A DNA stretch of 64,000 bases, taken from Myxocyprinus asiaticus (taxonomy: Eukaryota > Chordata > Actinopteri > Cypriniformes > Catostomidae). Positions 14,425 through 45,169 of the stretch are shown in pieces. The DNA lies in the NCBI RefSeq assembly GCF_019703515.2, contig NC_059379.1:21447380-21511379 (forward strand), in the 5' to 3' direction. Under the pieces are notes generated by a model. That model saw nothing but the letters and a program-made list of their open reading frames with translations, did not search any database and had not been told where the DNA came from. The position numbers were made by a program, and so were the translations under genes. Numbering within the stretch: position 1 is the first letter of the stretch; the number at the start of each line of letters is the position of its first letter.

Positions 14425-14828
14425 TTCACATTCCAAAAGATAGGTAGATGGATATCGATGGACTCGTGGTTGCTTTGGGTTTGGAGAAGGATGGACACCT
14501 GCATAGGCCCAGGCAAATTTCTTCTCTGGGATATTCTGCTCTGGATCTCTTGAAGCTGGAGCTAAAAGCTGTACACCTCTTCAGTCAGTCTTCAGACCAT
14601 CAAAACCAACCAGAAGGCTATCAACACAGGGCACCAGGTGGTCCACATAATGGTTAAAGTCAAAACTGTCTGAAATGATGGAGGAATCGGAGGCCAAAGA
14701 GGAAGCAGATGAAGTTTGCCGTGGTGCCATGGGACTGAGTGGTATGGAGAGGTTGGAGGCTTGAGAGCCCTGGGAGGATCTGGAAGGTGGAGGAATTCCA
14801 TTCCTTCAAACTTGACTCGGTGCCTAAA
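14425..14828 (-). pseudogene. pkd1: pkd1 last-exon remnant (C-terminal tail)
   Basis: After an acceptor CTTCTCTATAG the exon opens at 14828 with FRHRVKFEGMEFL, which continues the KTKE ending of the exon at 15881 and closely resembles the polycystin-1 start of the cytosolic tail. A Ser-rich stretch follows in another frame (SSQGSQASNLSIPLSPMA), then TEEVYSF, a stop, and LQLQEIQSRISQRR, which resembles the coiled-coil that in polycystin-1 binds polycystin-2. At least two frame changes and one stop (TAG after YSF) break it. Confidence 0.75.
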
Positions 14829-15719
14829 CTATAGAGAAGATAAAAAAAAATAAAAAAAATTGTTGTTGACAACACTCCAACCAATAAGAAAAATCTGTGT
14901 GTTTTGTTAGCATGGATGTATCATGGATGTATGTATGTATCTACTACATACAGCCCCCTTGAGACCATTACAACTTTAAAAAAAAAAAAAAAAAAAAAAA
15001 AAAGGCAGAGGCAATAGAGGCTACTTGCACTCCAAATTAAATACTAACAAACAGAGTAGTGGCATCACTGCAGCATGTTTATTGTGTTTATTTAGAGTCC
15101 CACAGACACCCTACACCAACCACTACCCCTAAACTTATCCTTCCACAACAAAAATTAACCATGATTTTACCACAGTAACCATTGTATCACCATGATATTT
15201 TGTAGTAACATAATAGTAACCACAAATTAAATGTTAACATCATACGACTGTAGTAACACCATGGTTAATTGCATTAAAACTATAGGTTTTGCCAAAAAAC
15301 ATGGTTACTGCAATAGTAAAAACATGGTTAATATTACCCAGATCAAACTTTTCTCTAAACTCCCAGACCTTCACAGTGACCAAATCACTGCTAGGAAATA
15401 AACATTTATATTAATTTGTTTTTTATTATTAGAAGTAGTATTTAAGGAAGGCAGGTGCTATTTGCATCTAGTGCAAATATATATATATTTTTTTCAACAG
15501 GAAATACATCAACACAGGAAACAAAACTACTCTCAACATGACAATGCATGGGGCCTTTAACAGATTAATAACCATATTCAGTATATAATGGCACATTCTA
15601 TCACCATCTATAAACAAAATGATCGCCTTTTCTGCTCATACTTTCGCTGTAGATTTGTACTATTCTGTTTTACTGTTGAAATTTGGTATTGTGATACTAC
15701 TAATATTGTTGGCTCCTTG

Positions 15720-15800
15720 ATAAATCATTTGTTTTTGTTTAGTTTTTTGTTTTTTTCATTTGTAAATCACTTTGGATTAAGCGTCTGCTAAACGTCAATA
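15720..15800 (+). repeat. Probable 3' tail of an L2/SINE-type retroposon
   Basis: The text AAATCACTTTGGATTAAGCG followed by TCTGCTAAACG resembles the common fish retroposon tail built on CTTTGGATAAAAGCGTCTGC. Upstream coding or tRNA-like parts were not recognised, so it is probably a 5'-truncated copy. Confidence 0.5.
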
Positions 15801-15880
15801 TAAATGTCAATGGACCTATATAAATGTTCCTGTAAATGCAAATCATAATGGACAAGAATAGTCAGACACTGATTTTGTAC

Positions 15881-16110
15881 CTCTTTGGTCTTGCTAAGCC
15901 CTATCCATAACTTGATCCGTTTAATGAGAAACTGTACCATCTCATAGTCCTGTGGCTTCATGGATGGCCAGTAAATTTCTGCCTGTACCATTCAGGAGGT
16001 TTGAATCAATACAACAGCACATAGGCGCACAAGTACCCAATGTCCACAGCAGCCAAGCAGTAGAGAGTTCCCACCACTGGATGATGCGCACAAAGTCGAT
16101 GCAGTCCCAT
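15881..16110 (-). pseudogene. pkd1: pkd1 exon: last membrane segment and start of tail
   Basis: One frame gives YGTASTLCASSSGG and a hydrophobic run CLAAVDIGYLCAYVLLY, resembling the last membrane segment. A stop and frame change follow, then IYWPSMKPQDYEMVQF and KRIKLWIGLSKTKE, very close to the polycystin-1 PQDYEMVELF...LWMGLSKVKE region. A GT donor follows KTKE at 15880-15879. The frame change between the two halves supports pseudogene status. Confidence 0.8.
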
Positions 16111-16620
16111 ATGCCCCCTCAATAAACATAGCAGTGTCTCACCCACACCTATCATATTGCTTCAGAAGACATTAATTTAACCACTGGAGTCTTATGGATT
16201 ACTGTTATGCTGGCTTTATATTATTACCAGTACCGTAAATGTAGTGTGTAATATAGTGCCTGTACACATATCTGCAGAAGAAAAAAAAGAAGATTTTTTT
16301 TTAATAAAAATTAAGAGCACCTTATGTAAAGAATAAGGTGAGATCTGTTCTGTTTTGATAAAAACTAGGGCTGAAAAGCGATTACAATTTTTAACTACAT
16401 GATCCGCTGATTAATTAATCAGATCATATTGCATACTGTATGTTTAAATCTGCTGAGAAAAGCCCTAAAATGAAGATAATTCAAAGAGTTTACCTTACTG
16501 TGGCAGATGAGAAAATCATTGAATAGACATTACAAAAATGACTTTTTTTTTTGTTTAATTTCTAATTCATTTGATTTTGGTTAGTTTGGTTTGGCCAGGT
16601 GTGCTGCCTTTAGTAGCTAA
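16110..16620. other. MITE fragment, otherwise nothing
   Basis: About 16138-16210 matches the interior of the TTAA MITE family (ACCACTGGAGTCTTATGGAT), copied more fully at 22105-22719. The rest is AT-rich without recognisable features. Confidence 0.5.
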
Positions 16621-16627
16621 TTGAATG

Positions 16628-16628
<1 letters not shown>

Positions 16629-16663
<35 letters not shown>

Positions 16664-16773
16664 TTTTGCATATAATTACAATAATTTACTAAACTAATGT
16701 TAAATTGACAGCCCTAATAAAATATTTTGGTCACACTGTATATTATGCTTCATTTTTGTTTTCTTATTTTTTT

Positions 16774-16809
<36 letters not shown>
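16629..16809. repeat. (TG)n and (TA)n microsatellites
   Basis: A (TG)n tract lies at 16629-16661 and a (TA)n tract at about 16783-16809, the latter abutting the 3' end of the minus-strand SINE. Confidence 0.9.
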
Positions 16810-16812
<3 letters not shown>

Positions 16813-17212
16813 CTTTTCTCCCAATTTGGAATGCCCAACTCCCACTACTTAGTAGTTCCTCGTGGTGACGCGGTTAATCACCTCAATCCGGGTGGTGGAG
16901 GACAAGTCTCAGTTGCCTCCGCTTCTGAATCCATGCATCTTATCACGTGGCTCATTGTGCATGACACCGCGGAGTCTCCCAGCATGTGGAGCCTCATGCT
17001 ACTCTCTGCACAACTTACCATGCGACCCATTGAGAGCGAGAACCACTAATCGCGACCACGATGAGGTTACCCCATGTGACTCTACCCTCCCTAGCAACTG
17101 GGCCAATTTGGTTGCATAGGAGACCCGGATTCACTGAGCAAACCCTGGATTCGAACTCGCGACTCCAGGGGTGGTAGTCAGCGTCAATACTCGCTGAGCT
17201 ACCCAGGCCCCC
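16810..17212 (-). repeat. tRNA-derived SINE, minus strand
   Basis: A reversed copy of the SINE at 9314. The tail CCCCTTTTCTCCCAATTTGG starts at 16810, and the tRNA-like head ends at 17212, with the box B-like GGATTCGAACTCGCG seen in reverse near 17148. It sits in the pkd1 intronic interval between 15.9 and 18.1 kb. Confidence 0.92.
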
Positions 17213-17315
17213 ATTATATTATGTTTATTTAAATACTATGTACTAACATTAAAATACATACAATACAACGACCTTCATGTTTTTCTGCAAAATTCTCATA
17301 AGATTCACATTTGCT

Positions 17316-17425
17316 GCAACTGAAGTTAAGGTACGGGTAGGTTTAGGAGTAGGGTTAGGGTTAGGGGTTAAAGTTAGGTTTTAGGGTAAGGGTTGTATTT
17401 GGGTTAGGTTAAGGGTAGGGGGCAG
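17316..17425. repeat. Degenerate TTAGGG-rich stretch
   Basis: Imperfect GGGTTAGG/TTAGGG-like words repeat over about 100 bp. They are too irregular for a functional telomere and look like a guanine-rich simple repeat or an internal telomere-like relic. Confidence 0.5.
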
Positions 17426-17428
17426 GGG

Positions 17429-17626
17429 CGGACTGGGAAGAAATTCGGCCTGGGATTTTACATAGAAACTGGCCCAAAGGTGGGGGGGGTTGCTGTCCTT
17501 TTATATCGCTGCCCCCTTCCACATATCGTGGCGCCGTTTTGTGGCGTGTTCTGCATAACATGCGGCCCCATTTCGCGGCCGGCCCACCGGGAAAAGTCCC
17601 GGTTCTCCCAATAGCCAGTCCACTTA
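17429..17626. mobile_element. hAT-type MITE fragment
   Basis: It starts CAGGGGCGGACTGGG and ends in a partial complement (AGCCAGTCCA) near 17626. The GC-rich interior differs from the AT-rich flanks. The right terminus appears incomplete. Confidence 0.5.
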
Positions 17627-17759
17627 CTGGTTGGTAACTACAAATGTAATTAAATGTAATTAATTACAATGCAACAACATACATAATAAGTACATTGCAT
17701 CAAATTCTTAAGTGCATGGTAGTTAAAGACAACTAATATAAAGTGGGTCCAATTTTTCT

Positions 17760-18166
17760 ACCTCTCTGTATTTTTTAATTTTTTTATTTTAGCTTAGTGT
17801 AAAGCTGACAATTTACACAAGGTATATTTCTATTTCTTCTGCACCAAACTTACTTCAAACTTACTTCTCTGTCTGCTCGTATGAATGTAACACATCATAA
17901 GAAAGTGTTTCACCGCTGTTCAAATGCACTTTTGATCGCATCATTTATATGTATAAATGTTTTCCATCTGAAAGGACTAAATATTAAATGAAAAAAATGA
18001 CAATAAAATGCAAAGTAATCTCTTCAGTAATCAAAATACTTTTTGAATGTAACTGTATTCCAGTTACCAATGATTTAAATTGTGACTGTAGTGGAATACA
18101 GTTACTTATATTTTGTATTTTAAATACGTATTCCCGTTACATGTATTCCATTACTCCCCAACCCTG
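17760..18166. repeat. Interspersed repeat, copy 1 (GGTTGGGGAGTAA family)
   Basis: The same 350-400 bp text occurs in the opposite orientation at 41829-42180, including CTTTCTTATGATGTGTTACA and the terminal word CCCCAACCCTGT. No protein is encoded. The superfamily was not established. This copy abuts the pkd1-like exon at 18170. Confidence 0.7.
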
Positions 18167-18169
18167 TTT

Positions 18170-18310
18170 ATAGAGTCAGGTGGAAGACTAGGGAGAAATG
18201 TGCTGGCCTCACAGAGCACTGAGAAGGTTGAGGGGGATTTGTGTAAGCTAGGTTCATATGCAGATGTATCCAGACTCAGATCAGACCACTCACTACACAA
18301 ACTGTCCTGA
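18170..18310 (-). pseudogene. pkd1: pkd1 cytoplasmic-loop exon
   Basis: After an acceptor TTTTTCTCTTCCAG the exon opens at 18310 and reads SQDSLCSEWSDLSLDTSAYE and then SPSTFSVLCEASTF. This acidic/Ser-rich text suits the variable cytoplasmic loop of polycystin-1 between PLAT and the later membrane segments. The 3' end runs into the repeat at 18166, so the donor is not clear. Confidence 0.6.
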
Positions 18311-18399
18311 CTGGAAGAGAAAAACACATAGAGATATGTGATCATGTATCCAGGTGAACTGTGAGTGGTTCAGTGTGAAGTGTCCAGTGCAGCACTCAC

Positions 18400-18513
18400 A
18401 TGTCAGATAGTGTGCTCTCATTGGGTTTAAATGGTCACTGTCAGATGCAGCTGGCAAAGAGGACAGAGTGTTTGTAGGATTCAGGTCTGCAGATATAGTC
18501 CTAAGATCTTCCT
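18400..18513 (-). pseudogene. pkd1: pkd1 cytoplasmic-loop exon
   Basis: The acceptor CTGTTTTTAG precedes 18513 and a strong donor GTGAGT follows 18400. The open frame between reads EDLRTISADLNPTNTLSSL and SDSDHLNPMRAHYLT. It resembles the DEDLI-containing loop of polycystin-1. Order and spacing fit the neighbouring exons. Confidence 0.6.
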
Positions 18514-18829
18514 CTAAAAACAGAACAAATGGTTCTATATTTTAAGGAAAGTGGGTGGTTTTTGTGATTTGTTTTATGGTATATTTATCATTGTGTGACA
18601 GTAAAAAGCTGAAGTGTGTAATTTCTGCACTAATAGTGTCACCAAACGACACTGCAAAAATGTTTTCAAAGAGGTTTTGCAAACACTCCCCCATCTGCCA
18701 TTGTCTTTGAATATTAAGCTTGGGTAGGAGAAAGTATTTTAACATCGAAACATATACACACTTATCCTTCCTTATTACTTCAACCAAATAAAAAGTGTGG
18801 TTGTTTTTATAAAACTGGAGACTCGGTTG

Positions 18830-18972
18830 GTTTCAAGGTGTCACAGTCAGAGGTCGGAGAAGACAAATGTAGTTGTAGAAAGGCTTTTTTTCTCTTCAGG
18901 AAATGAGTGGTTCCTGTCAGCTCAGACAGACCAAAGATACTGTCACATGATGACCAGTGATCCACATTATGT
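18830..18972 (-). pseudogene. pkd1: pkd1 cytoplasmic-loop exon
   Basis: The acceptor AATTTCAG precedes 18972. The frame reads HNVDHWSSCDSIFGLSELTG and LKRKKAFLQLHLSSPTSD, acidic then basic, in keeping with the polycystin-1 loop. No convincing donor was found at the far end. Confidence 0.55.
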
Positions 18973-19243
18973 CTGAAATTCATGTTTAAAATAACAGTCT
19001 GTCATTATGTAAACTATTTAAATACTGTAATTGTATGTAGAGTAAAAATTGTGGTACTGTTCTGTAGAGTTCCAAAATTCTGAATCAAGTTTATTGCTTT
19101 GTAAATAGCTCTTGGAGGAAAACAACAACAACAAACAAATAAGATGTCTTGACTCTAATTTAAAGTTTCTGTAAATCTGTTGCATTGCCAATTAAAGAAA
19201 TTGAACTGGTCTAATTTAGAATGGAGAAAGATTTTTCTCTCAC

Positions 19244-19372
19244 AGTGAAAGGAGACTGTCCATCATATATGGAAGAGTCAGAGCCAGTGGGTAGGGACAG
19301 AAAAGAAGAGTAGGAGAGATTTGGATGACTGAGGAAAACATCCATCTCAATACTGAGACACATGAGAGTCAC
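19244..19372 (-). pseudogene. pkd1: pkd1 cytoplasmic-loop exon
   Basis: The acceptor GTGTTCCAG precedes 19372 and the donor GTGAGAG follows 19244, giving a 129-nt open exon. The frame includes LSIEMDVFLSHPNLSYSS and FLSLPTGSDSSIYDGQS. The position upstream of the other loop exons matches polycystin-1 order. Confidence 0.58.
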
Positions 19373-19542
19373 CTGGAACACAATCCATCACCTGTACTAC
19401 AAGTGATGCATTTTCATGAATGTAGATCTGAAGTTAAAATTCATTACATAGTCCCAAGTATGTAGATGCCCAAAGAAATACCACACCCATATGTGCTTGA
19501 GCATTTAATTTTATAACCATGGTCATTAAAAAAAATGGTCAG

Positions 19543-19735
19543 GGTTCAGTACAAGTTAAGCTCAATAGACAACATTTGTGGCATAATGTTTACCACATAA
19601 AAATAATTTCGACTTGTTCCTCCTTTTCTTTAAAAAAAGCAAAAATTGAGGTGGCAGTGAAGCACTTACAATGAAAGTGAATGTGGCCAATTTTTGGAGG
19701 GTTTAACCTGTTAATGACGGGTGGGTCAAAAATGA
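19543..19735. repeat. Partial MITE (AATATTCCGGG family)
   Basis: It shares GTACAAGTTAAGCTCAATAG and the following text with the full palindromic copy at 35212-35859; only the left half is present. Confidence 0.65.
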
Positions 19736-19739
19736 CCCA

Positions 19740-21550
19740 CTAGCATATTTATTTAATGCATGTTTAAACTGTGAAATTGTAAACTAATATTGACATCCAA
19801 TATATCATTTGAAAGATCTGGGTCTCAAGATTTGACATGTTGAAGAGATTTTGATGGTCGCAAAATTACAACAATAAGATTTTATTAAACGTGTTAAGAG
19901 TGAAAATCAAAACACGGAAAATGAAACTGGAAGTTCTGACCTTTATTGTCTTCCAGCCAAACATAGATGAGTACAATCCTCCAAACTTCGGTATGCTTTT
20001 CATTGCAAGAGTCCAATAAATAAAATCCATTAGAGATTTTAATTCAAAAATGTAAAAATATGAAGAAATATTGATCAATCTCTCTTTGATCAGTCTGTTA
20101 TCATTCATGTCCATTCATTGTGAAATCTTGTAATCTGTGTAGTGTTTCAGTAGCAAAACACCCAAAAATGATATTTGGGAGGGTCTTACGAAAGAAAATG
20201 AGCCCTCCCTCAAAATATTCTGTGCAGTTGTGGTTGGGTAGTCACTCAAAATAGCCAAACAGGACAGTCGGCATGAGTGACGTAAAGATTTGTCATCCAT
20301 GTTTGTCTCTGTATAAAGTCGGCCAATGAAAAGCTAGATCATTTTTGACTGATTGGTCATGTAGCTAATGAAAAGATGAAAACAACGATATCAGTGTTGC
20401 ATATATCCCTGATGCCGATTTGCGAAGGTTCGGAGTAGAAAACCGTGAACTATGTTTGTTTGTGTTTGCGCTTTTATGCACGGTGTGCAGTTATAGCGTG
20501 TTACTGCCATACTGTCGACAAAAAACTCGGCTTTTGGACCTGCGATCTGATCCACCCTCCTTGGCTTCAGTCACCATCATTGAGGGTATGGAGATCACAA
20601 GCTCCTGACTGCATTTTTTCATCAAACACCCTGTTCAACTGCACATCCAGGGGGCTCGGACATGTCATTCAAGCCAAAATGAGCGGCGTCCAAATCAAAC
20701 TTAAAACACACCAGCACTGAGATGAAGGCGTTGAAAATTAAATCATCAGACACATTCCTTGACCTTGTGAAGAAGACTCCCTCTCCACTACATTTTTTCT
20801 TAATGTTTCAAAAACGTTTCAAGTCATCGCTTCATGACGAATTCATGTCGGTGCGAAACTGCTTATTATTATGGCGTATGCAGGTCTGAGCAGTTCCGTT
20901 TCAATTTCAATTTACTGTGGTAAGAAAGACAGAGAATATTACTTATTATCCAAGTTTGCAGTTTTGCAAACACACTCTCACGGCGAAATCGTCAGGATTC
21001 GTCCGACTTTTCTAAATTTGGCTAAATCGTATGATATCGTTGTATCGCTTGAAATCCTACAACTTTCACTACAGTCAATGACGTCACTGGAAATCATTTC
21101 CATCTAATACGCGACAATTACTTGCTTCTGTCACACACAACAGCTTCAATCATGTTTACACACTCTCTTGATTGGTTAAGTTTAGATAAGGGATTTGGGT
21201 AAGGGCATAATATTAATAAGTATGTCCTTAACGCCTCGTACGCGGAACTCGTGCTTACTTCTGCATTAGACATCCAGGAATTTGCACGTGATGAAGTTTT
21301 ATGAGTTTATGCGAACAACATCGTGCGAGACCATACGTAAAAGCCAACTCATAAATTATGTATGACTTTTCATGAGATCGGTTGGTTTTGCAGATTTAAT
21401 AAACCAAATCAGGAATATATGCTTGCTCTAGCTATCATTTAAATAATGATGCATAAGAGTACTGTCTGTGTAATTAATAATAAACAATTTATTCTTCTGA
21501 AGTTTTTGTATGGAGTGTGAACGTTGTACAGTATGGTTGTACCTGTAATT
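19740..21550. other. No gene recognised
   Basis: Several open frames of 60-90 codons exist but lack domain or splice support. pkd1 exons expected between 33 and 19 kb (GPS, PLAT, first membrane segments) were looked for here and not seen. Confidence 0.45.
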
Positions 21551-21552
21551 TA

Positions 21553-21765
21553 TACAGAGGTGGGTAGAGTAGCCAAAAACTGTACTCAAGTAAAAGTACA
21601 ATTACTTTAAAAAAAAATAATTACTCAAGTAGAAGTAAAAGTACTAACATAAATAATTACTTGAGTAAGAGTAAGAAATTATCCAATTAAAAGAGTACTC
21701 AAGTAGTGAGTAACTCGTTACTTTCACAAATTACATAATAGACACATTGAACATATATTACAGAA
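21553..21765. mobile_element. hAT-type MITE end
   Basis: CAGAGGTGGGTAGAGTAGCC begins an AAGTA/TACTCAAGTA-rich element of a type common in fish genomes. The right terminus is not clear, being followed by an (ATT)n tract. Confidence 0.5.
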
Positions 21766-21808
21766 TTGTTATTATTATTATTATTACTATTATTATTATT
21801 ATTATTAA
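21766..21808. repeat. (ATT)n microsatellite
   Basis: Nearly perfect ATT/TTA trinucleotide run. Confidence 0.9.
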
Positions 21809-21824
21809 TGGAAATTCTGTCATC

Positions 21825-22104
21825 ATCACCATCATGTTGTTCCAAACCTGTATGAATTTCTTTCTTCCATGCAACACAATAAGTAGATATTAGACAGAAT
21901 ATTTGCCTGAGTCACTATTTACTTTCAGTGAATGTTTTTTTTTTCTCCATATTTTGAAAGTGAATGGTGACCGAGACTGTCGGTCCCTAACATTCTGTCT
22001 AACATATTTTGTGTTCCATGTAATAAAAAGCGTCTCACTGGTTTGGAACAACATGAGGGTATGGAAATTATGACAGAATATTAAATTATGGCTGAGCTAT
22101 CACT
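21825..22104. repeat. Palindromic MITE (GTTGTTCCAAACC family)
   Basis: The arms GTTGTTCCAAACCTGTATG and GGTTTGGAACAACATGAGGG are inverted copies, and ACATTCTGTCTAACA-type text lies in the centre. Related copies are at 47762-48040 and, as a half copy, 43500-43623. The element can fold into a hairpin and encodes nothing. Confidence 0.7.
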
Positions 22105-22719
22105 TTAAAGAGATAGTTTACCCAAAATGAAAATTCTCTCCTCATTTACTCACCCTCATGCCATCCCAGATGTGTACGACTTTTCTTCTGCAGAACACAA
22201 GATTTTTAGAAGAATATTTTAGCTCTGTAGGCCAAAATTTTGATGCTCCAAAAAGCAAATAAAGGCAGCATAAAAGTAATCCATAAGACTCCAGTGGTTA
22301 AATCCATGTATTCAGAAGTGATATGATAGGTGTGGGTGAGAAACAGATCAATATTTGTCATTTTTTGCTAGACATCAGGGGATGATATGCAAAAAAGAAT
22401 GTGAATCGCCAAAAACACAAGAAGAAGAATGTTAAAGTGATTTGTTTCTCTGTTTCTCATCCACACCTATCACATCGCTTCTGAAGATACTGATTTAACC
22501 ACTGGAGTCTTATGGATTACTTTTATGCTGACTTATGTTTGATTGTTTAGCTTTAAAATGTTGCCACCCATTCACTTGCATTGTATGGACCTACAGAGCT
22601 GAGAAATTCTTCTAAAAATCTTCATTTGAGTTCAGCAGATGAAAGTCATACACATCTGGGGTGGCATGGGGGTGAGTAAATAATGAGAATTTAAATTTTT
22701 AGGTGAACTATCCCTTTAA
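22105..22719. mobile_element. TTAA-flanked MITE
   Basis: Left end TTAAAGAGATAGTTTACCC (22105) and right end GGTGAACTATCCCTTTAA (to 22719) are inverted copies ending in TTAA, a target typical of piggyBac/Kolobok-like elements. The interior has no coding capacity. A 428-bp relative lies at 28081-28508. Confidence 0.78.
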
Positions 22720-23037
22720 GGGCTCTTGTCAGATCTGGATGAATTTGTCAACAAGAGAGGTTTGGAAGCATTTCTAGTAATTATTACAGTGAAAATGTCC
22801 CACAAGGGCATTTTTATATAATGCTGAAATATAAAACAAAGCAAGATCATGTTTTATTAATGCCTACTTTAGCTATTTCAAAGCTTTTAAAGTCCTGTGT
22901 GGATTCTTATTTCAGTGTAGTTAGAGTTTTCAGTGTTGAAAGAATTTATATCATTAGTTCTGTACAGCAGTACCTCCGCTCTCTAAGCGCAGAGTACGCA
23001 GCCTGTGTAGGGCACCAACCCTGGTCATGGAACACTC

Positions 23038-23694
23038 GCTGTGTCTGAAACCGCCCCCTATCCACTATATAGTGCACTAATTCAGGTGTCTGCCATTTTG
23101 TAGGAGTGTCTGAATTCTGAGTGAGCCACTTGTTCCCTACTTTTGTTCACTCATTATTAGCTGCAAAACACTCTAATTTCGCGTATACATTTGATGTACA
23201 CTCGACAACGATTAATTGCCCATAATCCACCATGGGGAAGACGTACCAGCTGGGAGTTTACTGCTTCCTTCACTCCTGCAATGTTTTATTTCATGCTGAA
23301 TGCAGTAAATTACTTTTTGACAAATCATTACTTGATTAAAATAACATAACATATAGAGAGGCAAAACATACAGATATATTTTAAAATGAACTCTTTATTT
23401 GATACAGTTTATTTACTCTTTATATTAACACACAGTATATATTAAAAATGGCAATCAGAGTGAAGATTTATTGTATTAATATATTATTTAATAAGAATAA
23501 CAAGTAAGGCCCAAGTATTTTAAAATTTCATTTGTGACATAGTTTCTGTGACAGCCCCAGAGCTCCTACACTCGGTGTATACGTCAGCATCTGAATTCAC
23601 TCACTCATTTCATTCACTCACTGCTGAGATATAGTGCACTAACTGCCATTCACTATATACGAAATAGTGAATGATTTCGAACACAGCCACTCTC
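23038..23694. mobile_element. MITE with GCTGTGTCTGAAA ends
   Basis: GCTGTGTCTGAAACCG at about 23038 pairs with TTTCGAACACAGCC at about 23678-23691, and both halves carry ATAGTGCACTAA words. No protein is encoded. The superfamily is uncertain. Confidence 0.62.
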
Positions 23695-24036
23695 TTCACC
23701 ATACGATCGCCTCGCACCCACACATCTCAAACGCGCGCGCCCCGCGCACCTCACTGTGCACGCACAGAAATGCTGTCTGTTCACGCTCCAGTTGTCGGTC
23801 ACGCGAATGGCAGAGCAAAATGAATTTATTTACACTCAACTTGGATGTTTACATGGATTTATACAATTAATCCGCCTGAAGTAGCTGCGATAGTTTCCAG
23901 TACCCCTGCGAGGGCACGTGGTAAACGCGTAAATAATGCTCATGACATGCGGGATGTGGGACAAAGCGCACTGATATATTGCTGCACTGATTTAAAAATG
24001 TACACTTAAAAACTGATGTCATAAGAGACCAGTTAC

Positions 24037-24400
24037 TGTAACATTGGTGTCTAGGAGTGGAAGAGGAAGAAAGGAGATGCAGGACTAGAATCTTTCAATC
24101 TTTTAATTATAAATGCTGGAGTGGAACAAACAATAGAGCTAACTTCACAAAATAACAAAAGAAGGAAACACTTGATCAATATAGCTATACACTTCATAAA
24201 CTCAACACAACACTTCAAGGACTGACAAATGATGAACAAAACTAGAGGGTATATATACACAGGGAAACAAATGAGGGAATGGAAGGCAGGTGCAGATGAT
24301 GATGAACAGATGGAAGTGATCAGGGCAGTGAACTATGGGAGATGTAGTCCAGTGGAAAACCAAAATAAAGACATGAGTGAGACAGACTGTGACAGTTACA
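24037..24400. mobile_element. Candidate solo LTR
   Basis: A 364-bp block begins TGTAACATTGG and ends GACAGTTACA, so it starts TG, ends CA and has short inverted ends. A clear target duplication and internal retroviral-type genes are absent. A MITE is an alternative. Confidence 0.35.
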
Positions 24401-25498
24401 TTATCACCTTGAATATGACCATCTAATTACACAGAAAAGTCCGCGTTAGGATTAGAGCCAAAACTTACCTCAGCATGCTGCTTTAAGTTGGAGCTGTGAT
24501 TTTAATCTTGAAATATCAGCTTGTCTTGGTGTTAAATGAAGGCATTGCATGGCGAAAATATTATTTTTTTCCACTGTGCAGAGTGAAGAAAGTGTTTCAC
24601 TTTGAAGAGTTTGATGCTGCAGCAGTGATTGAGTGACAGTCTGTGACAGCAGCAGAGAAATCAGGTGTTTAATAACTGGGTAAGACCTTGTTTGTTCAGT
24701 TGAATGAACTGGGAGTTACATGAATGTCAAAGTTTACACAGTAAGACGGTGCATTAAAGGTTCCACTCACCATATCCTCCTTTCAGGGCCGGGCGGTGGC
24801 ATAGGCGACATAGATGGTTGCCTAGGGCATAAAATTGCAGAGAGGCGCTACACCAGAGTTTTTATTTTATTTATTTTTTGTCAGAATTGCGCCCTGTCGT
24901 GACGACTGTGCGCCCCTCTACCCATATATTGAGCACTAGTGCTATGCGATTATATTATAATCGGATCCTTATCATATGTAGACAAAATGAGTGAAAAAAA
25001 GAACCAAATTATCAGGTGAACAAGGCAGGAAGCGGCACAAAGAAGAGGAGCAGAAAAAAAGAGCAATATAAAGGTAAGAATCAAAAGTTAACGACTGTTC
25101 ATGTTAGCCATTGATGTTTATTTACTACTTTGAAATAGCTTATTTAGAACCTCTTAACTGGCATGGACACTGTGGGCTGTTTTTTGCTTGTTTTATTTAA
25201 GTTAAGTGCAAGTTAAGTGCAGTGTATTTTCTTTAAAATAAACTTAAGCTTCTATAATGTTGTTTTAATTTCAGTTATATTGCTACTCTTTCACTTCACC
25301 AAAAAAACTCCTAAGTGTCTTCTTTTAAAAGAGACCATGATTAGGACTGTATTCTAAAGCATTCATGCTAAGCACCCTCAAACGAACATTAGAGCACCCT
25401 CAATTGCAGACCAGGGCAAACTGCTTCCCGCGGGTCGATTTATCATGAAAGTTTTTCCAAATGCGATGCCAAACAAACCATTGAAGAGACCTAAAATA
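24401..25498. other. No gene; possible hAT left end at 24784
   Basis: CAGGGCCGGGCGGTGGC at 24784 resembles the left end of a GC-ended hAT family. A possible right end CTGGGCCAGCCCTG stops at 27985. Otherwise the DNA is AT-rich and featureless. Confidence 0.4.
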
Positions 25499-27534: not shown

Positions 27535-27598
27535 TAAATAGCCATCTTAAGACAAATGCTTTTGTGAAACATCATACGTGCCTAAGACTTTTGCACAG

Positions 27599-30261: not shown

Positions 30262-30272
30262 TAGGTGCTGTA

Positions 30273-33170: not shown

Positions 33171-33174
33171 TGTA

Positions 33175-34885: not shown

Positions 34886-35211
34886 CTGTAAGATGGAGTA
34901 AAATCAGTGGCTTATAAGATTATAGGCCAGGGTTTTTCTAACTTTTTAATGCCAGAAACCCCAAAATGTAATGATGACCTTGCAAGGAACCCCCTTCCTA
35001 AAATATAAAAGGCAGCTATATATTTTCAATGAAATAAATGGCATTTATTTGTCACTGTTCTAAAGCTAAACTTCTATCAATATTTACTTTTTATTATCAT
35101 AAATCAGCAGCATATCTTTGTGTCCATGTTTTTTGTAACCAATATCAGAATATAGAATACAATTCAAATTTATTAATTTATTTACAACAAAAATCGCTCC
35201 AAAGCAACTTC

Positions 35212-35859
35212 AAAGGAATATTCCGGGTTCAATACAAGTTAAGCTCAATCGACAGCATGTGTGGCATAATGTTGATTTCCACAAAATTTAATTTTGACTT
35301 GCCCCTCTTTCTTTAAAAAAGCAAAAATCTGGGTTACAGTGAGGCACTTACAATGGAAATGAATGGGAGCCATTTTTTGCATTAAAATACTCACTGTTTC
35401 AAAAGTATAACCACAAGACATAAACAATATGCATGTAAACATGATTTTAGTGTGGCAAAATTACTTACTAACCTTTTCTGTGTAAAGTTATAGCCAATTT
35501 TACAACTTCATTGCCATGGCGATGTAATGTCAGCAAACACTAAAACCCTGAAACGACTGTAAAAATGACAATTTAAACAACTTTACAGCTCAAATAATAC
35601 ATGAGTTTAATTTATGAATTAATGTAAGTGCTTTAATAAAATTATAAGCTTAACATTTCTGCCTTTAAACCCTCCAAAATTGGCCCCATTCACTTACATT
35701 GTAAGAGATTTACATTATAATTTTTTATGTAAAAAAAAAAAAAAAAGAAGAAGAAAAAGAAAAGAGGGACGAGTCAAAATACATTTTTGTGGTAATCAAC
35801 ATTATGCCACAAATGCTGTCGATTGAGCTTAACTTGTATTGAACCCAGAATATTCCTTT
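35212..35859. mobile_element. Palindromic MITE, full copy (AATATTCCGGG family)
   Basis: Left arm AAAGGAATATTCCGGGTTC and right arm GAACCCAGAATATTCCTTT are inverted, and the arms stay complementary for well over 100 bp (GTTAAGCTCAATCGACAGCA versus the complement near 35810). The roughly 650-bp element is non-coding and could fold as a long hairpin. Partial copies are at 19543-19735 and 62005-62105. Confidence 0.82.
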
Positions 35860-36031
35860 AAATAGAACCATTTAACCAGTGATCAAGCTAAAGTATTCCC
35901 TAAAAACATAGTCTACACAAACTTATCTATGTAGCTGTATGTATAGTTGCAAAGAAGGACAGACGAACACATGAGACATTATGGGCTTGTTTGATATAAA
36001 GTCATTTTAAACTATGTTGTGAATGGATTAC

Positions 36032-36171
36032 CTGTACAGTGTCTTCTTCACATGAAGAATAATAGCCAGCCATGACAATTTGCCTACTATGACTCACATG
36101 GAATGACAACAGGGAATCACAGGATATGCACTTCACATTCACAGATAGTAAAGCAGCATTGTCCACTGTAA
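36032..36171 (-). pseudogene. pkd1: pkd1 REJ-domain exon
   Basis: The acceptor CATTCTCTCAAG precedes 36171 and a donor GTAATC follows 36032. The open frame includes VTVDNAALLSVNVKCISCDS and VMAGYYSSCEEDTVQ, matching the polycystin-1 PIVSLECVSCKAQ...YLEGRCLNC region with its cysteines in place. Confidence 0.8.
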
Positions 36172-36257
36172 CTTGAGAGAATGAACAGTATTAATGACAA
36201 AATATGTTCACAATTACATTTCTAAGCTTAAGTACTGTAAAATGAGCTAACACTCAC

Positions 36258-36420
36258 TGACTATGATACAGAGACAAGTTGTTGCCCACTTTTGTAAAGG
36301 GTGAGAGTAAAGTGGGACACTGTCTGGCAAAAATGCACTTCTGGGAAGAACAAGAATACTTCCATTTCCTGAAATAGGATGATGAGGGGTGTAAATGGCT
36401 GAAGATGATGCTGTAGTGTT
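36258..36420 (-). pseudogene. pkd1: pkd1 REJ-domain exon, frameshifted
   Basis: The acceptor GTGCTTCCAG ends at 36421 and a donor GTGAGTG follows 36258. The first frame reads NGSILVLPRSAFLPDSV. A 1-nt shift is then needed to continue as PHFTLTLYKSGQQLVSVS, as polycystin-1 does (STVTIPRERL...YTFSLTVWKAG). Confidence 0.72.
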
Positions 36421-36524: not shown

Positions 36525-39500
36525 CTCTGTAACCGAACCGAAACAGCTCAGTATTATTCTCTTCTGAATCTGGATCATACGACTCAGTTGCATCCAGAAT
36601 CAGATCATTTTGACCGTTAATCAGAGACACCAGTTGACCGTGAACCACAGCGATCATTACGGTCTTGTGTTGTTTTAGGGGAGTTCACTGCAGTCTGGTG
36701 GTTAATGTCAGACAGTAGTTTCACACTTTAAGAGTGTGATTTGGCAGAGACAGAAGCGGTGTAGTAACATCCACTGAATCATTTAAAGATAACTTGTCCA
36801 TTGCTGAGCAATCAGGGCCTCTGAAAATCTCCCAGAGATATGATGCTTTGTGTGTAACAACCTTTGAAGTCCACTCTTGCTTCAAAAAAGCTTGGCCTAG
36901 ATTTTAATATTTTAGATTGTTCTTCAACTAGGTAGATGTGAGGCTGGGTACACTCCAATTTTTGTACTTTAATTGTCATTTGCGTTGAGACCTGACTTAT
37001 GTTGTAGAAAGCTGTAAATTGCACCACAAACCAACCCGTAACATTGTATCTGTGGTCTTGAGTATTGGATTCTAAACCACTGGAGTCTCCAAAATCCCAA
37101 ATTAATTTTAGGTCACTTCCTCCAACTGTGACTGCTACAAAAGGGATTGGATAGTCAATAAAAGCACCATCGTGGGAGCTAACAAGCTTCACATCCTTCA
37201 CATGCTTTTGTACTGTTGTTGTAATGCTCAGGCACTGTGAACAGAAGCCATTATCAGCTTCCACTTTAACAGACAGGGATCCATTTGTAATAGGTGTAAA
37301 GTGAACTTCTTGCCCAGTTTCCTGAGAGAAATAGACTCCATTTAATAGGAAAGTCCAGTAATTATCGGCTTGGGAGCTACTGCCTTGTTCTGCTTGAAAA
37401 GTGATGGTTTTTGATGCCTCAAAGGCAGCAGAGCAGCATCCAATCAAAAACAAGCCCTTGATTTTTTACACCACTTGCACGGTTACGGTCACTGTTTGGA
37501 TACTGACAATATTTTTTGCTATTGCTCTCACTAAGTGCTTTCCAACTGAAAGAGAAGAGGTGGTAAAATTTTGCTCAATGTCAATGGATGAAATTCCATT
37601 CATGAATTTCAAAGTAAAGAAAACTTCACTTCCTTGAGAGACAGATGGTTTGAATGTAACCAAATCATTCTCTCATACAACACAGCTGCTAGCTGTTAGT
37701 GAAAGTCTTCTGATGGCATCCTCAGTGGTCACAATATACGAAACAGTTTGCCAGCTAATGTCATTTGAGGTGTCCACAAAAGAATAGCTAACTGTTTGAT
37801 TGTCAGCAAGAACAATTACTTTACTGTTATGAAAAGTTAATGTCCATTCCCAATGTAGGACATTTCCTGTCCTTGCACATCCATAGAGTGACAGGAGGCT
37901 GTTTGATGCGACAAAAAAAGGGCTTGTTTTTCCATTTATCTGAAAGTCAACTTCAGAGATGCTCTCTTGAATTATTAGTAGTTTGGTTACATTGTCAGAT
38001 CCAAACACATCTGAGACCGACACTCTGAGTTCGACCACACCAATAACTTTGAAGACATGCAAGACAAAGTGTACATCTGATATTTCAGGACTGTGTTCAA
38101 AGTGCAGGAACCATAAGCACTGAAGGCCTGTTCAAGATGCTACACTCACAGAGATCTTTACTGGCTTTCCTTTGGCAACAACATACATCGGTACTGAAAT
38201 ACCCACACCAGAAATGCGCTCAACTGCCCTCAATGAAAGTTTAATATCTACAGATCCAAGAGTATTGGATACTACCAACTTGACATATACATCACCAGGG
38301 CTGTTTGTAAATAGCTGAAATTGTTAACTGTTGCTTATAGTTTGATTATTCCCACCTTGATCTGCGAGCCACTCATATGTCAAGTTAGAACCATGTGTCA
38401 CTGATGCTGTAAATAGCACAATCTGATTGGTCAGGAAATATCTTGCAGACTGCAGACCCTGACATAGGATTCCAACCCCTTCTATTCTCTCTATGACCTC
38501 AACAAACATTGTGGTTTCCATCTGACAGACAAGATTTTGAGCTGTGACTCTAATCAGAAACACCCCTGCCTTAGGGAACACATACAGTATATAAACTCAG
38601 ATGTCCCAGGGACTGAAAGTGACAAATATTTTACAGTCCAGTAAAACTTAACATTCTCATTCACATCAGTCCAAGCTTTAAAAAGTATCTCTTTTCCTGC
38701 CTCTGCAAATGGCTGACTGGTATTAACCATTAAATGTGACAGAGGTGCCTGCACCTCTACTACTATGGAAACAGAATGGGAACTTATTGCATTAGATGCA
38801 GTGACAGTCACACAAAACCTCACAGGAAAGGAAAAATGTGTGATTGATTTTGGCCCTCCTTTTTTAAGGGACCATCTCCAAAGTCCCACAGTAAAAGGCC
38901 ATCTAACTTACTACAAAGCTCAGCCCCAAAATACCTTCGTATTTTATGGATAGATTGGATACAGGCATTTAAAAGAAAAAAAAAAAGAAAAAAAAAACAC
39001 AGGTGTTTTTGCCGTTCTGTTGCTGACTTTGTTACTTGTACTTGCCAGCACCGTAACTTCATACAAACCCTCTGCTGGAAAAAACAAAATTTTGTGACAG
39101 GCCTATGACTGGGGATTCACTAGAAAAGTTACTATTCCACCAAAAACTTACAATGATCACTTATTTTGGGAAGCACAGGTACATCAAAGCATATTTCATC
39201 ATTCACCACTAGAGCATTCTTGGGTGAATGCAATGTAACATCTGTTATTTGGGCCTCAACACATATGTTGGTTTGATAATGGGCTGAATTGAAAAAAGTA
39301 TGAGTGATTGTGGTAGCCCCTTTAACAATAGACAACCCACCCCATCTCCAAAATCCCAGTGATGAGTCAAAAGAGGAAAATAGCCATTCAATAACACCTT
39401 AAAATCTATCTCTGCTTCATTCACAATGCAGTCCGTTGGAAAGATTTTACTAATAAACAACTTAAAGACTTCCAAATTGACTGACTGGTGTTCCCTACTT

Positions 39501-40047
39501 ACAGAATGATATGGGGTAACCTGAACAGTGTAGTTTCCAGGAGACATGTAAACATGAGAGGCTGAGCTTCCAGAGGGATCTTTCAGTACCGAACCATCTC
39601 CAAAGTCAAAAGTCAGTTTTATTTGTGTGCCTGCAGACACTTTGCAAGTGATTTCAAAGATGCAGTTAAGTTCAATGGAGCCAGTGTAATTCAGCTGGAG
39701 ACCAGAGACAGCTTCAACTACCTGCACAGCTATATAGTTAGTCAAGATTGACAGGGTGCTGTTGGCACAAATGGTGACATCGTATGTCCCGGGTCTTTTA
39801 AAAACATGGCTGACTTTACTGTGATAGTCCTTCACTTTACTGGAGTTGTTGCCAAAGTTCCAGGAGTAAATCACTCCATATGAAGAGGGCCATAGTGAGA
39901 CCTCGAAGACGATGGTGTGCTTGACCTGACATACAATTGAGGACGATGACACCAGCAATCCTTATATTGGAGTCCTTACTTTAACTGTTAAAGTCTTTTC
40001 AATATGGTCAAATTTGTTGTAAGCTGTTATTTTCAGTGTGTATTCAC
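36525..40047 (-). pseudogene. pkd1: pkd1 giant PKD-repeat exon
   Basis: A single block of 3523 nt without internal splice sites runs from the acceptor TTTTTTTTAG (before 40047) to a GTAAAT donor after 36525. It corresponds to the giant PKD-repeat exon of polycystin-1 (human exon 15 is about 3.6 kb by memory). It opens with GEYTLKITAYNKF and carries many PKD-domain signatures: YSWNFGNNSS, FDFGDGS, HHWDFGDG, LLWDFGDGP and IWDFGDSSG, plus VTASNAISSHSVS. It ends in the REJ start DLILDATESYDPDSEE. In-frame stops lie near 39.97, 38.15, 37.673, 37.466 and 36.72 kb, and frame changes near 39.3, 39.1, 38.9 and 38.57 kb. The extracellular PKD repeats would form the ectodomain stalk. Confidence 0.9.
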
Positions 40048-40179: not shown

Positions 40180-41363
40180 GCGGCCAAAAGTTTGGAATAA
40201 TGTACAGATTTTGCTGTTATGGAAACAAATTGGTACTTTTATAGTCAGAACATTAATAACGTGAAAAATGACTATTACAATTGAAAAAGATGTTCAGAAC
40301 GTCTTAAACTACTTCAAAGAGTTATCATCAAAAAATCCTCCACGTGCAGCAATTACAGCTTTGCAGATCCTTGGCATTCTAGCTGTCAGTTTGTCCAGAT
40401 ACTCAGATGACATTTCACCCCACGCTTTCTGTAGCACTTGCCATATATGTGGCTGTCTTGTCGGGCACTTCTCACACACCTTACAGTCTAGCTGATCCCA
40501 CAAAAGCTCAATGGGGTTAAGATCCATAACACTCTTTTCCAATTATCTGTTGTTCAATGTCTGTTTCTTTGCCCACTCTAACCTTTTCTTTTTGTTTTTC
40601 TGTTTCAAAAGTGGCTTTTTCTTTGCAATTCTTCCCATAAGGTCTGCACCCCTGAGTCTTCTCTTTACTGTTGTACATGAAACTGTTGTTGAGCGGGTAG
40701 AATTCAATGAAACTGTCAGCTGACGACGTGAGATGTCTATTTCTCAAACTAGAGACTCTGATGTACTTATCCTCTTGTTTAGTTGTACATCTGGCCTTCC
40801 ACATCTCTTTCTGTCCTTGTTAGAGACAGTTGTCCTTTGTCTTTGAAGACTGTAGTGTACACCTTTGTATGAATTCTTAATTCTTTTGGCAATTTCAAGC
40901 ATTGTATAGCCTTCATTCCTCAAAACAATGATTGACTGACAAGTTTCTAGAGAACGCGGTTTCTTTTTTTGCCATTTTTGACCTAATATTGACCTTAAGA
41001 CATGCCAGACTATTGCATACTGTGGCAACTCAAAACAAAGACAATGTTAAGCTTCATTTAATGAACCAAATAGCTTTCAGCTGTATTTGATATAATGGCA
41101 AGTGATTTTCTGGTACCAAATTAGCAATTTAGCATGATTACTCAAGGATAAGGTGTTGGAGTGATGGCTGCTGGAAATGGGGCCTGTCTAGATTTGATCA
41201 AAAAATAAAAGAATAAATAACAATTGTGATGGTGCTGTTTTTTTACATCAGTAATGTCCTGACTATATTTGTGATCAGTTGAATGCCACTTTGGTGAAGT
41301 AAAGTACCAATTTCCTTCCAAAACAGCTAAATCTGTACATTATTCCAAACTTTTGGCCTTCAG
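40177..41363 (-). mobile_element. Tc1-like element, internally decayed
   Basis: Ends CTGGCGGCCAAAAGTTTGG (40177) and CCAAACTTTTGGCCTTCAG (to 41363) are inverted repeats extending through AATAATGTACAGATTT. Minus-strand pieces are an N-terminal helix-turn-helix (41028-40744, MLEIAKRIKNSYKGVHYSLQ) and a C-terminal end (40542-40309, MDLNPIELLWDQLD with the catalytic Glu). The first two catalytic motifs appear deleted. Confidence 0.87.
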
Positions 41364-41377
41364 ATCTTTATTAGGTT

Positions 41378-41592
41378 AGTGGTTCTCAACAGTTTTTTCC
41401 TTAGAACTCAGATTTTTCATTACAAAAGAAGCATTTTTTTCCTCCCTTATAAAATTTGGTAAGCCTATTTACTTTGCTGAATTAACTTTACATGATCATA
41501 TGGTTTCTTGCATTTTATTATATGCATTTAGTTTTGTGCTGTCCACCACCCTATCAAAACAGACCTGTGACCCACAGGTTGAGAACCAATAC
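41378..41592. mobile_element. hAT-type MITE (TGGTTCTCAAC ends)
   Basis: AGTGGTTCTCAACAG near 41378 pairs with GGTTGAGAACCAAT near 41578-41591. The insert is about 215 bp and non-coding. Confidence 0.6.
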
Positions 41593-41717
41593 TTCAGGTT
41601 TTTTTTTCAAATGTCATCAAATCTTTACTGCTTTCCCTATACTAGGTGATGGCAAAGAACCCTATGAGCTCTTAGTTAATTAGTTAATCAGTTAATAGCT
41701 GAACTTGCAGTAATTTC

Positions 41718-41722
41718 CATGT

Positions 41723-41804
<82 letters not shown>

Positions 41805-41828
41805 ATACATACATACATACATACATAC
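41718..41828. repeat. (TA)n and (CATA)n microsatellite
   Basis: A (TA)n tract (about 41721-41794) is followed by ATAC units to 41828, abutting the left end of the repeat at 41829. Confidence 0.95.
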
Positions 41829-42180: not shown

Positions 42181-42721
42181 GCTAAAATGCTATTTCTAGC
42201 CTATTTACATGCATGTTACCAAACACGATCATTTTTTTATATCAAGAAAATTCAAGTTGGATCATAATTTCCTTTTTCTAGTAAGACCTTTGATATTAGG
42301 GCAAAATCATATTTGTATTGTTTTCCTGTAAAAATATCTAAAAATCCTTAAAACAAGATCAGTTTGATTTATCTTGTTTTAGAAACAGCACTGCATAAGA
42401 TATTTAGGTTTTTCAGAGAATGTATTTTTAACATGTGTATTTTGTCTTACTGTACTGGCAGAGTTTTTATAGTCAAAACAAGTGAAAAAAATCTGCCAGT
42501 GATGAAGTAATCCAAAGTATTTAGAATACTGACCTTGTCTTTCATCTCTAAAGCAGCAGAAACTGGGTGACTATTAGAAGTCGAATTATCATCTGGAAAG
42601 ATAAGTAACAGTACATCATAATACAGCATAATATAACCTATTAAAGAAGTCAAATGTACTTTCCTAACTTTAACTCAGTTAAAATAATTACATGTTAAAT
42701 ATAATATTAATTATAAATACT

Positions 42722-42890
42722 GGGGCAGTGGTGGCTCAGTGGTTAAGGCTCTGGGTTACTGATCAGAAGGGCAGGGGTTCAAGCCCTAGCACCACCAAAA
42801 TGCCACTGTTGGACCCTGCACTCTGACCCCAGCTTAGCTGGGATATGTGGAAAAAAAAGAATTTCACTGTATATGTGCAAATGTGTGATA
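42722..42890 (+). repeat. tRNA-derived SINE, second family
   Basis: GGGGCAGTGGTGGCTCAGTG (box A-like) and GGGGTTCAAGCCC (box B-like) form a tRNA-like head. The tail GAATTTCACTGTATATGTGC and GATAAATAAATATT resembles a LINE 3' end. It is shorter than the SINE at 9314 and unrelated in the body. Confidence 0.8.
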
Positions 42891-43140
42891 AATAAATATT
42901 ATTAATTATAGCTTTAACTCCAATGGTGTAGAGAGTTGAGGTGTTTACAGCAATGGCTACTGAAGCTGTAAACAACTGTAGATAAAACTGATTAAGCATC
43001 CAAAAATGTTTTAAAATGCAGTAGAAATAAATGTTTAGAAACATTTCCCAAAATATCATGCAAATACCATTAGCCCGTAAAAATGTTAAAAGGTAACTGG
43101 CAAAATTTACAAAAATGACAAAAATCACAGGATTACCTAC

Positions 43141-43380
43141 CTGTGGTAGCACAGTTACAGGGATATGAGACACAACTCTCAAACTCAGACTCTGGGAGTT
43201 CAGGCTGTTTGAAGCTATGATGTTTAGTGTATGTTCCCCTAGACTTGAAAGCACCATGTACACATGAGAGAACCATATGTCAGGAGTTTCCCTCACACAT
43301 TCTCCATCAATCTCAAGCATCTTAGCAGGGCAAGACAGCCCTTCTGTCAAGTGTAGCGTCCACGTAAAGCAAGCTGATAT
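43141..43380 (-). pseudogene. pkd1: pkd1 exon with PKD-repeat part
   Basis: The donor GTAGGTAA follows 43141. The frame reads ACFTWTLHLTEGLSCPAKML, then GECVRETPDIWFSHVYMV and GEHTLNIIASNSLNSQSLSL. It matches the early PKD region of polycystin-1 with its cysteines and the EH...NS...LSLRV pattern. The upstream end meets a MITE, so the acceptor is a guess (AGATATCAG). Confidence 0.72.
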
Positions 43381-43499
43381 CTCACACAACTCACGCGAAA
43401 GATGTCTGTGTTTCAGGTCTATTTCTTTCGGTGTGCGAAACGTTTCCAGCACTTTGGGTGTGAGACGCCAAAATACGGGACAAATGGCGGTGGCAACCC

Positions 43500-43623
43500 T
43501 AGCTGTCATTCTGCCTAACATCTCCTTTTGTGTTTCACAGGGGAAAGTCATATGCATTTTGAAAATCATGAGAATGAGTAACTGATGGCAGAATTTTTAC
43601 TTACTGGTTGAACTATCCCTTTA
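43500..43623. repeat. Half MITE
   Basis: GCCTAACATCTCCTTTTGTG through TGGTTGAACTATCCCTTTA matches one arm of the palindromic TTAA MITE families seen at 21.8-22.7 kb. Confidence 0.6.
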
Positions 43624-45021
43624 GGAGCCATGCCACTAAGTGAAGCAATGCCACTTACACTAATGTGTGTGTAATTAGCAATCGGGGGCAATTTGAGTGA
43701 CATGTCTGCCATCAAGTGGAAGAACGGTGGTGTTGCAGGGTAGTGGGGAGGAAGGGAGAATGCATAAGGGCTGCATAGATGGGCAGACAGATCTCAAGCA
43801 GGTGGCACCAATACTGCCGGCTGGCACATCCACAAGTGGTGTTACACATGGTCATCAGTGAAGAGCAGCTGAAAGGATTCAACAGAGAACTACAGCCTGA
43901 TAGGGAGAGAGTGCAAGAGGTACACTGTGCGTGTAATCTGTAATGGTCTTTTTCAGAATATACAGCTACTTTTTAATGACAATTGACAATTGATAATTTG
44001 ATAGCAAAGTATATTTTGCTAATTAGCAGCACTTAAAGACCCCATGAAAAAGCTTGACGAGTGCAGTTTTCTTTACTGTATTGAGGTATTTCCTATTGAA
44101 ATTGGAAGTTAAGGTGGGACATATCGAAGGACTCATCGCTTGATTTTAAATAACCAGTAGCCTTTAATTTATGCTACAGCCATGAACTTGATTTGCTACT
44201 TGCTGTTGCTAGTCAGAAGTATGTGGTGTTAGGGAGGGACATTCTCAAACAAGAGAGCATTTTATTTTAACAAAATGAGTGAGTGCAAGAGGAGTCATCA
44301 GTATTTTTGACAATTTTCCTGGAAGAGAAATTCCAGCTTCCAAGCAACAGCTATAGAGCCTGCTAAAAGTACATTTTAAGAAAACTAGCATATAGCTGAC
44401 CTCAAAAGCTGGGCTGAAAAACTCACAAAAATCCAGTTTTGAGTGATAAACATTTGATGTGTTGTTTTATTTTGAAAATGATTTTTAGGAGTGTAAAGAA
44501 CAACATACTGCACAGTTGATTGATTTAATGTGAAAATACCACAAACACAAGAAAATAATAATAATAAAATTTGTATTTATTTTTAAAAACTATAAAAAGG
44601 AATTGCACTGTCTGTAAACATATTTTGTCTGGCAACATTAATTTTGTTACTGCTGTGTCCAAATATGTACAAATACCTCTTGATTTTACAGCACAAAAAA
44701 AAATAAAAAAAAAATAAACAGACTCCAAAAAACAGACAGCCTGCCATAAACTCACATGATTGGTTGAGCCAATGTAGCTATATCAGGATGCTCAAACAAA
44801 CAAAGGAATTTTTTTGTAGCTCCACAAAGCCACAATGTTCCCACTTTTTGAGGGGAACCAACCTACGAATGACTTAGTCCTTGTTGACTCTTGCATTTAA
44901 GCAGGGATAGGAGAAAGCATTTTATCTTTGTAAAAAATGACATACTTCACCTTTTATTTGCAGCTGTCAGTAGGAGGGACATGCATTTATCAAGTAACAC
45001 ATGTGAAATGTCAGCACTCAC
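43624..45021. other. No gene recognised (pkd1 intronic interval)
   Basis: Lies between two pkd1-like exons on the minus strand. No further exon was found. A/T-rich runs lie near 44695-44716. Confidence 0.45.
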
Positions 45022-45169
45022 CCGGTGGTACTAGATGATGACTTGGGCTACGGTAAGGCCGTACAATTTGCACTTTAGCAAAAGACAACTGATCACTTGG
45101 CTGCGTCACCAAATCCATAGACAGCACTCGACCCTCGTGACTGAACCAGAGACCTGGGAACAATATAAT
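45022..45169 (-). pseudogene. pkd1: pkd1 exon downstream of the lectin domain
   Basis: The acceptor CTGTGTCCACAG precedes 45169 and a strong donor GTGAGT follows 45022. The 148-nt open frame reads IILFPGLWFSHEGRVLSM, then KVQIVRPYRSPSHHLVPPG, like polycystin-1 VEVMVFPGLRLS...LRLQVYRLL. It is the most N-terminal segment supported here; LRR, WSC and lectin parts upstream were not found. Confidence 0.72.

Follow-up and report, generated by a model that had tools for sequence, protein, structure and literature searches.

The human PKD1 pseudogenes, PKD1P1-P6, are segmental duplications of PKD1, dead polycystin-1 copies in which introns are present. A locus that is likewise dead and intron-bearing, but which appears to be a polyploidy homeolog of the fish paralogue pkd1b, is described here from the Chinese sucker, Myxocyprinus asiaticus. 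It lies in a stretch of 64,000 nucleotides (the window; positions 21447380-21511379 of contig NC_059379.1, here C36) and, judged from its sequence, is almost certainly a dead homeolog of pkd1b, lost after polyploidy.

Excerpts of PMC5318412 describe zebrafish pkd1b as rapidly evolving, and report that pkd1b was not found in medaka and that the stickleback gene has no channel domain. The gene is loss-prone in these teleosts as it is in the sucker, which differs by still having one intact copy, on the homeologous contig C32. The relic also fits the duplicates of the catostomid genome doubling (Cat-4R) in both divergence and collinearity (PMC8412299, in excerpt; further background on sucker polyploidy is given in parts of PMC11673241). 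One copy is dead here, and the 54.7% of complete BUSCO genes duplicated in the sucker genome implies that single survivors are common there too (PMC8412299, in excerpt).

With the pkd1b genes of cypriniforms, represented by polycystin-1 of Myxocyprinus (P0001) and of Cyprinus (P0007), the relic shares gene order, exon borders and the PKD, REJ and C-terminal regions, and it is identical to the C32 gene at 81% of residues over the 2087 codons compared. Unlike these genes, it is without a match for 17 of 42 exons and contains many stops and frameshifts. It adds one more case to the familiar and ordinary loss of duplicate genes that follows polyploidy. No earlier report of it was found in the literature on pkd1b pseudogenes, where PMC5318412 was the sole match, or in the titles and partial abstracts of the 10 papers listed, out of 612, on Myxocyprinus pseudogenes or homeologs. 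The locus provides a well-preserved example of a tetraploid fish shedding one copy of a very large gene. It leaves ideas on polycystin function unchanged, and serves as a warning for annotation, as a gene model placed over the C36 locus would be a false polycystin.

Identity and extent of the relic

Pieces of P0001 residues 1-4029 were recovered by tblastn in collinear order, with gaps, on the minus strand from 46739 down to approximately 14130, and this collinearity on one strand excludes chance. When the first 886 residues of the giant exon were used as the query, P0001 ranked first among the 30 proteins listed. When the 42 exons of the C32 gene were sought on the opposite strand (E up to 1e-3), only two fragments of exon 9 were returned, both part of a local inversion. 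The minus strand of 14130-46739 can be identified as a decayed, intron-bearing and non-processed polycystin-1 gene of the pkd1b type; a processed (retrocopied) pseudogene was ruled out by the presence of introns.

The name pkd1b is taken from the UniRef names of the close matches P0007, P0016, P0020 and P0024, the first of which is named 'Polycystic kidney disease 1b'. This paralogue is a fast-evolving fish gene that is absent from mammals and is not the direct counterpart of human PKD1, a candidate identity that was ruled out for the relic (in pkd1b of C32, the giant exon has 28.6% identity with a mammalian PKD1, P0026). Giant exons on two further contigs, C7 and C8, are 38.6% and 38.7% identical to P0026, their top match among 26 proteins. 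As this similarity exceeds that to each of the 25 fish pkd1b-type proteins compared, the C7 and C8 copies are regarded as the pkd1a pair. In a profile search of the genome contigs, the 45 PKD matches included repeat clusters at four places; those on C32, C7 and C8 lie in open frames of 1270, 1249 and 1246 codons, respectively, and on C36, within the window, the frames are broken.

The main frame of the giant exon matches the Pfam PKD repeats at E 1e-50, and pieces of REJ were also detected. In a comparison with the PDB, 15872-16102 matched the C-terminus of polycystin-1, the matched stretch being interrupted by an in-frame stop; kinase-like PDB matches (E 0.4-0.8) were set aside as chance. An Rfam scan of the window returned no matches.

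The original prediction, of a polycystin-1 relic on the minus strand with its pieces in gene order and many intact splice borders, agrees with the collinearity to P0001 and with the 36 of 39 matched splice sites that are intact, and its view of a decayed locus as opposed to a processed copy is borne out by introns kept in gene order. The location was right, but the bounds given (14425-45169) were too narrow for a gene that runs from the ATG at 46739 to approximately 14130. The assignment to a decayed polycystin-1 locus stands, refined to pkd1b and away from the direct counterpart of human PKD1.

Damage to the gene, and the intact partner copy

The block at 36525-40047 had been proposed as the giant PKD-repeat exon, carrying five or more stops and a number of shifts in frame. 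The identification rests securely on the PKD repeats, on a tblastn piece of 78% identity to P0001 over 592 residues (the best one) and on flanks that are kept as AG (40049-40048) and GT (36524-36523), and the damage proved greater than the stated minimum. Aligned as DNA to C32 exon 11, it differs by 11.6% mismatches and by 14 indels, of which 9 shift the frame, and has 8 stops; the protein-to-DNA alignment contains 7 stops and 8 frameshift steps, so that one giant-exon stop is alignment-dependent.

The protein-to-DNA alignments were made with a home-made frameshift- and intron-aware aligner, applied with P0001 as the query to C32 and to the window alike. On C32, pkd1b has 42 exons, 41 introns that are all GT-AG, and neither a stop nor a frameshift in 4029 codons, which are followed by TAG. 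As P0001 was itself predicted from C32 an open frame there is expected, but the absence of lesions indicates that the aligner does not create them. This full open gene is the intact second copy that the original prediction had suggested looking for. Aligner chains between residues 2515-2969 and 3173-3696 consisted of tiny pieces joined by introns; they were regarded as spurious and excluded from the counts, as was a piece between residues 2128 and 2245.

All 42 C32 exons were sought in the window, and those matched over at least 80% of their length were counted as kept. Nineteen were kept, 6 were partial and 17 had no match, with 7748 of 12090 coding bases matched. For the 82 splice sites of the C32 gene, 39 could be matched (36 intact and 3 lost, reading AA at 36174, AT at 34329 and TT at 18814) and 43 could not. 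The features of the relic are as follows:

14130-46739, minus strand: entire pkd1b relic, starting at the ATG of exon 1 and ending with the last coding exon
46678-46739, minus strand: exon 1 with ATG, 62 nt long (64 nt in C32), reading frame disrupted around residue 15
43659-46520, minus strand: exons 2-6, 5 of 5 detected, exon 3 partial (64%), C-type lectin domain in exons 2-3
42910-43335, minus strand: remnants of exons 7-9, with 26%, 17% and 27% matched and with deletions
42536-42591, minus strand: remnant of exon 10, 41% matched
41358-41721, plus strand: inverted piece composed of three stretches from within C32 22820599-22821503, an interval that covers intron 8 and part of exon 9
36525-40047, minus strand: exon 11, the giant exon of PKD repeats, 3523 nt long (3650 nt and open in C32)
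34628-36420, minus strand: exons 12-14, REJ region, exon 13 acceptor AA
34610-34628, minus strand: deletion junction, approximately 5.5 kb of C32 (22833963-22839457, exons 15-16) without counterpart
33112-34459, minus strand: exons 17-19, exon 17 donor AT, exon 19 with 4 stops
19530-33111, unstranded: 13.6 kb in place of exons 20-26 (PLAT), no exon matched, several Tc1/mariner relics
18165-19368, minus strand: exons 27-31, exon 29 donor TT
16135-18164, unstranded: approximately 2 kb in place of 9.8 kb of C32 that holds exons 32-40, encoding the polycystin domain and the bulk of the channel
15881-16134, minus strand: exon 41, frameshift step at 16047 and stop at 15994
14130-14828, minus strand: exon 42, C-terminal tail, 1 stop and 6 frameshift steps

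No match was obtained in the window for exons 15-16, 20-26, 32 and 34-40. The relic therefore lacks residues 2734-2840 (PLAT domain), residues 3372-3525 (polycystin domain) and the greater part of the channel at 3536-3748. Within 16135-18164, matches are limited to 22 nt of exon 33 and a portion of intron 32. The single collinear island in 19530-33111 (24657-24784, 128 nt) was considered as a surviving exon and dropped, as it consists of intron 22 with 14 nt of exon 22. Damage that had been noted in the exons near 33.2, 36.3, 15.9 and 14.6 kb was recovered in each (4 stops and 3 frameshift steps; 1 frameshift step; 1 frameshift step and 1 stop; and 1 stop and 6 frameshift steps, respectively). 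The account of damage as stops and frame changes was correct, but it overlooked the missing exon blocks and the inversion.

A truncated yet useful locus, producing a shorter extracellular protein or a regulatory RNA, would fit the intact state of most matched splice sites and a ratio of nonsynonymous to synonymous substitutions (Ka/Ks) below 1, and stickleback Pkd1b is described without a channel domain (PMC5318412, in excerpt). It is nevertheless highly unlikely, as the reading frame is broken as early as exons 1 and 2 and the giant exon carries 7-8 stops and 8-9 frameshifts, and an earlier functional phase can account for the low Ka/Ks.

Errors of assembly or sequencing in an intact gene were considered as an alternative. 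Indels are a typical Nanopore fault. The published sucker assembly was built with Nanopore reads (PMC8412299, in excerpt), which speaks for errors of this kind. Conversely, all eight giant-exon stops are single substitutions relative to C32, the window is without any N, Ka/Ks is raised (which base-level errors would not produce, any more than missing exon blocks or an inversion), and in the same assembly C32 pkd1b, the giant exons of C7 and C8 and the adjacent gene mrpl27 are faultless. With 17 of the 42 exons lacking a match, one piece inverted, and mrpl27 intact on both homeologs only approximately 10 kb from the relic, the lesions are very unlikely indeed to be a fault of the assembly.

Homeology and the timing of loss

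A collinear chain of 47 blocks spanning approximately 86 kb of C36 connects it to C32 (segment compared, 22765660-22890000). Synonymous divergence (Ks) between the copies is 0.21 for pkd1b, 0.25 for pkd1a (C7-C8), 0.23 for mrpl27 and 0.22 for eme1, and the published Ks peak for the sucker genome doubling is 0.184 (PMC8412299, in excerpt). Phylogenetically, the relic groups with C32 pkd1b as its sister (support 100), on a branch of 0.136 compared to 0.080 for C32. With Ks of 0.21-0.25 near the published peak and a collinear partner segment, the relic can be assigned to the sucker-specific genome doubling as a homeolog. A recent segmental or tandem pkd1b duplicate, comparable to the human pseudogenes, would likewise keep its introns but is extremely improbable, as eme1, mrpl27 and non-coding DNA are duplicated alongside in the same order and the unlinked pkd1a pair has a similar Ks.

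The genome doubling would have made one of the two pkd1b copies dispensable. Selection on the C36 copy may have been relaxed some time after the subgenomes diverged, and the copy would then have decayed, with no working polycystin made; eme1 on the C36 homeolog would have been lost too, with mrpl27, between pkd1b and eme1, kept on both. The partner copy is intact, mrpl27 survives between two dead genes, and the giant exons of the unlinked pkd1a pair are both open, which gives the locus built-in controls for timing such a loss.

For both relics (pkd1b and eme1), codons four or fewer positions from an indel were removed before the Ka/Ks, rate and tree analyses, and the rate tests used 12 outgroups drawn from the other 29 listed proteins. 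Ka/Ks between C36 and C32 pkd1b is 0.442 (bootstrap 0.381-0.523; 2075 codons), compared with 0.189 (0.148-0.241) for the pkd1a giant exon (C7-C8). The window carries 139-183 private residue changes against 88-115 in C32, an excess with each of the 12 outgroups (chi-square 9.5-20.9). Both measures indicate relaxed selection on the C36 copy over the kept exons; the signal is weak in the giant exon alone. At 843 sites invariant in 10 cypriniforms, the window has 102 changes and 5 stops; C32 is changed at 65, so the intact copy evolves fast too.

Some observations weigh against a copy that has simply been dead. Private changes in the giant exon alone number 65-93 in the window against 56-72 in C32, and exceed a chi-square of 3.84 with only 3 of 12 outgroups. 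Additionally, 36 of 39 matchable splice sites still read GT or AG, and a Ka/Ks of 0.44 is well below 1, such that neutral decay does not fill the whole branch. The neutral fraction of the branch estimated from Ka/Ks is 0.19, 0.31 and 0.36 at rate ratios of 1.3, 1.6 and 1.75, and the rate estimate speaks for a probably late death of C36 pkd1b. The stop count (12 in 2087 codons, where 21-24 are expected if the branch was wholly neutral) gives a fraction of 0.50-0.57 (intervals 0.26-0.87 and 0.29-0.99), and taken alone barely excludes a wholly neutral branch. These estimates of timing are rough because C32 stands in for the ancestor and the two estimates differ. A tentative scenario, possible but on balance doubtful, is that the C36 copy of pkd1b remained under selection until roughly half, or more, of the time since subgenome divergence had elapsed, after which pkd1b and eme1 were lost regionally and mrpl27 was kept double.

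Neighbouring genes and inserted repeats

Two neighbouring genes lie in the window:

57241-58640, minus strand: mrpl27, 4 exons and three GT-AG introns, intact; an internal control
59445-64000, continuing to approximately 64558 (about 560 nt past the window), plus strand: eme1 relic, 1 stop and 5 frameshift steps

The window copy of mrpl27 is 100% identical to the Myxocyprinus mrpl27 record P0031 over 99% of the query, and Ka/Ks between the C36 and C32 copies is 0.138. A reciprocal loss of mrpl27 on C32 was considered and proved wrong, with the gene open on both homeologs and three GT-AG introns in each copy. The Anabarilius grahami protein P0003 is a model in which residues 15-105 fuse mrpl27 to pkd1b; it supports the neighbourhood and is probably an annotation fault.

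The eme1 relic has lost two donors (TT and GG), and its last frameshift step lies beyond the end of the window. C32 eme1 has neither stop nor frameshift, and one GC-AG intron is common to both copies; Ka/Ks between them is 0.389. Of the 76 sites that differ between C32 and C36, the Xyrauchen EME1 protein shares the C32 residue at 57 and the C36 residue at 10, and matches neither copy at the remaining 9. This is weak evidence at most that the eme1 loss may predate the split from Xyrauchen, with one Xyrauchen-named protein among the 28 EME1 matches listed, where clustering at 90% identity or a cut-off could hide another.

Relics of Tc1/mariner (Sleeping Beauty-like) transposases occur inside the pkd1b relic at 26185-27135, 29249-29923, 30916-31747 and 40564-40734 (minus strand), and a 98-base unit is repeated in 2.9 copies at 93% at 30272-30557 of the window. 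A TA-rich array at 41722-41827 adjoins the inverted piece. Outside the gene, a retroelement relic at 49000-51000 (minus strand) has a weak RVT_1 match at 50224-50397, below the Pfam cut-off, and is DIRS-like by eye only. A second such relic, at 54696-55513 (plus strand), matches a portion of P0018 that resembles a retroelement; P0018 is a polycystin model from a catfish and includes a reverse-transcriptase domain.

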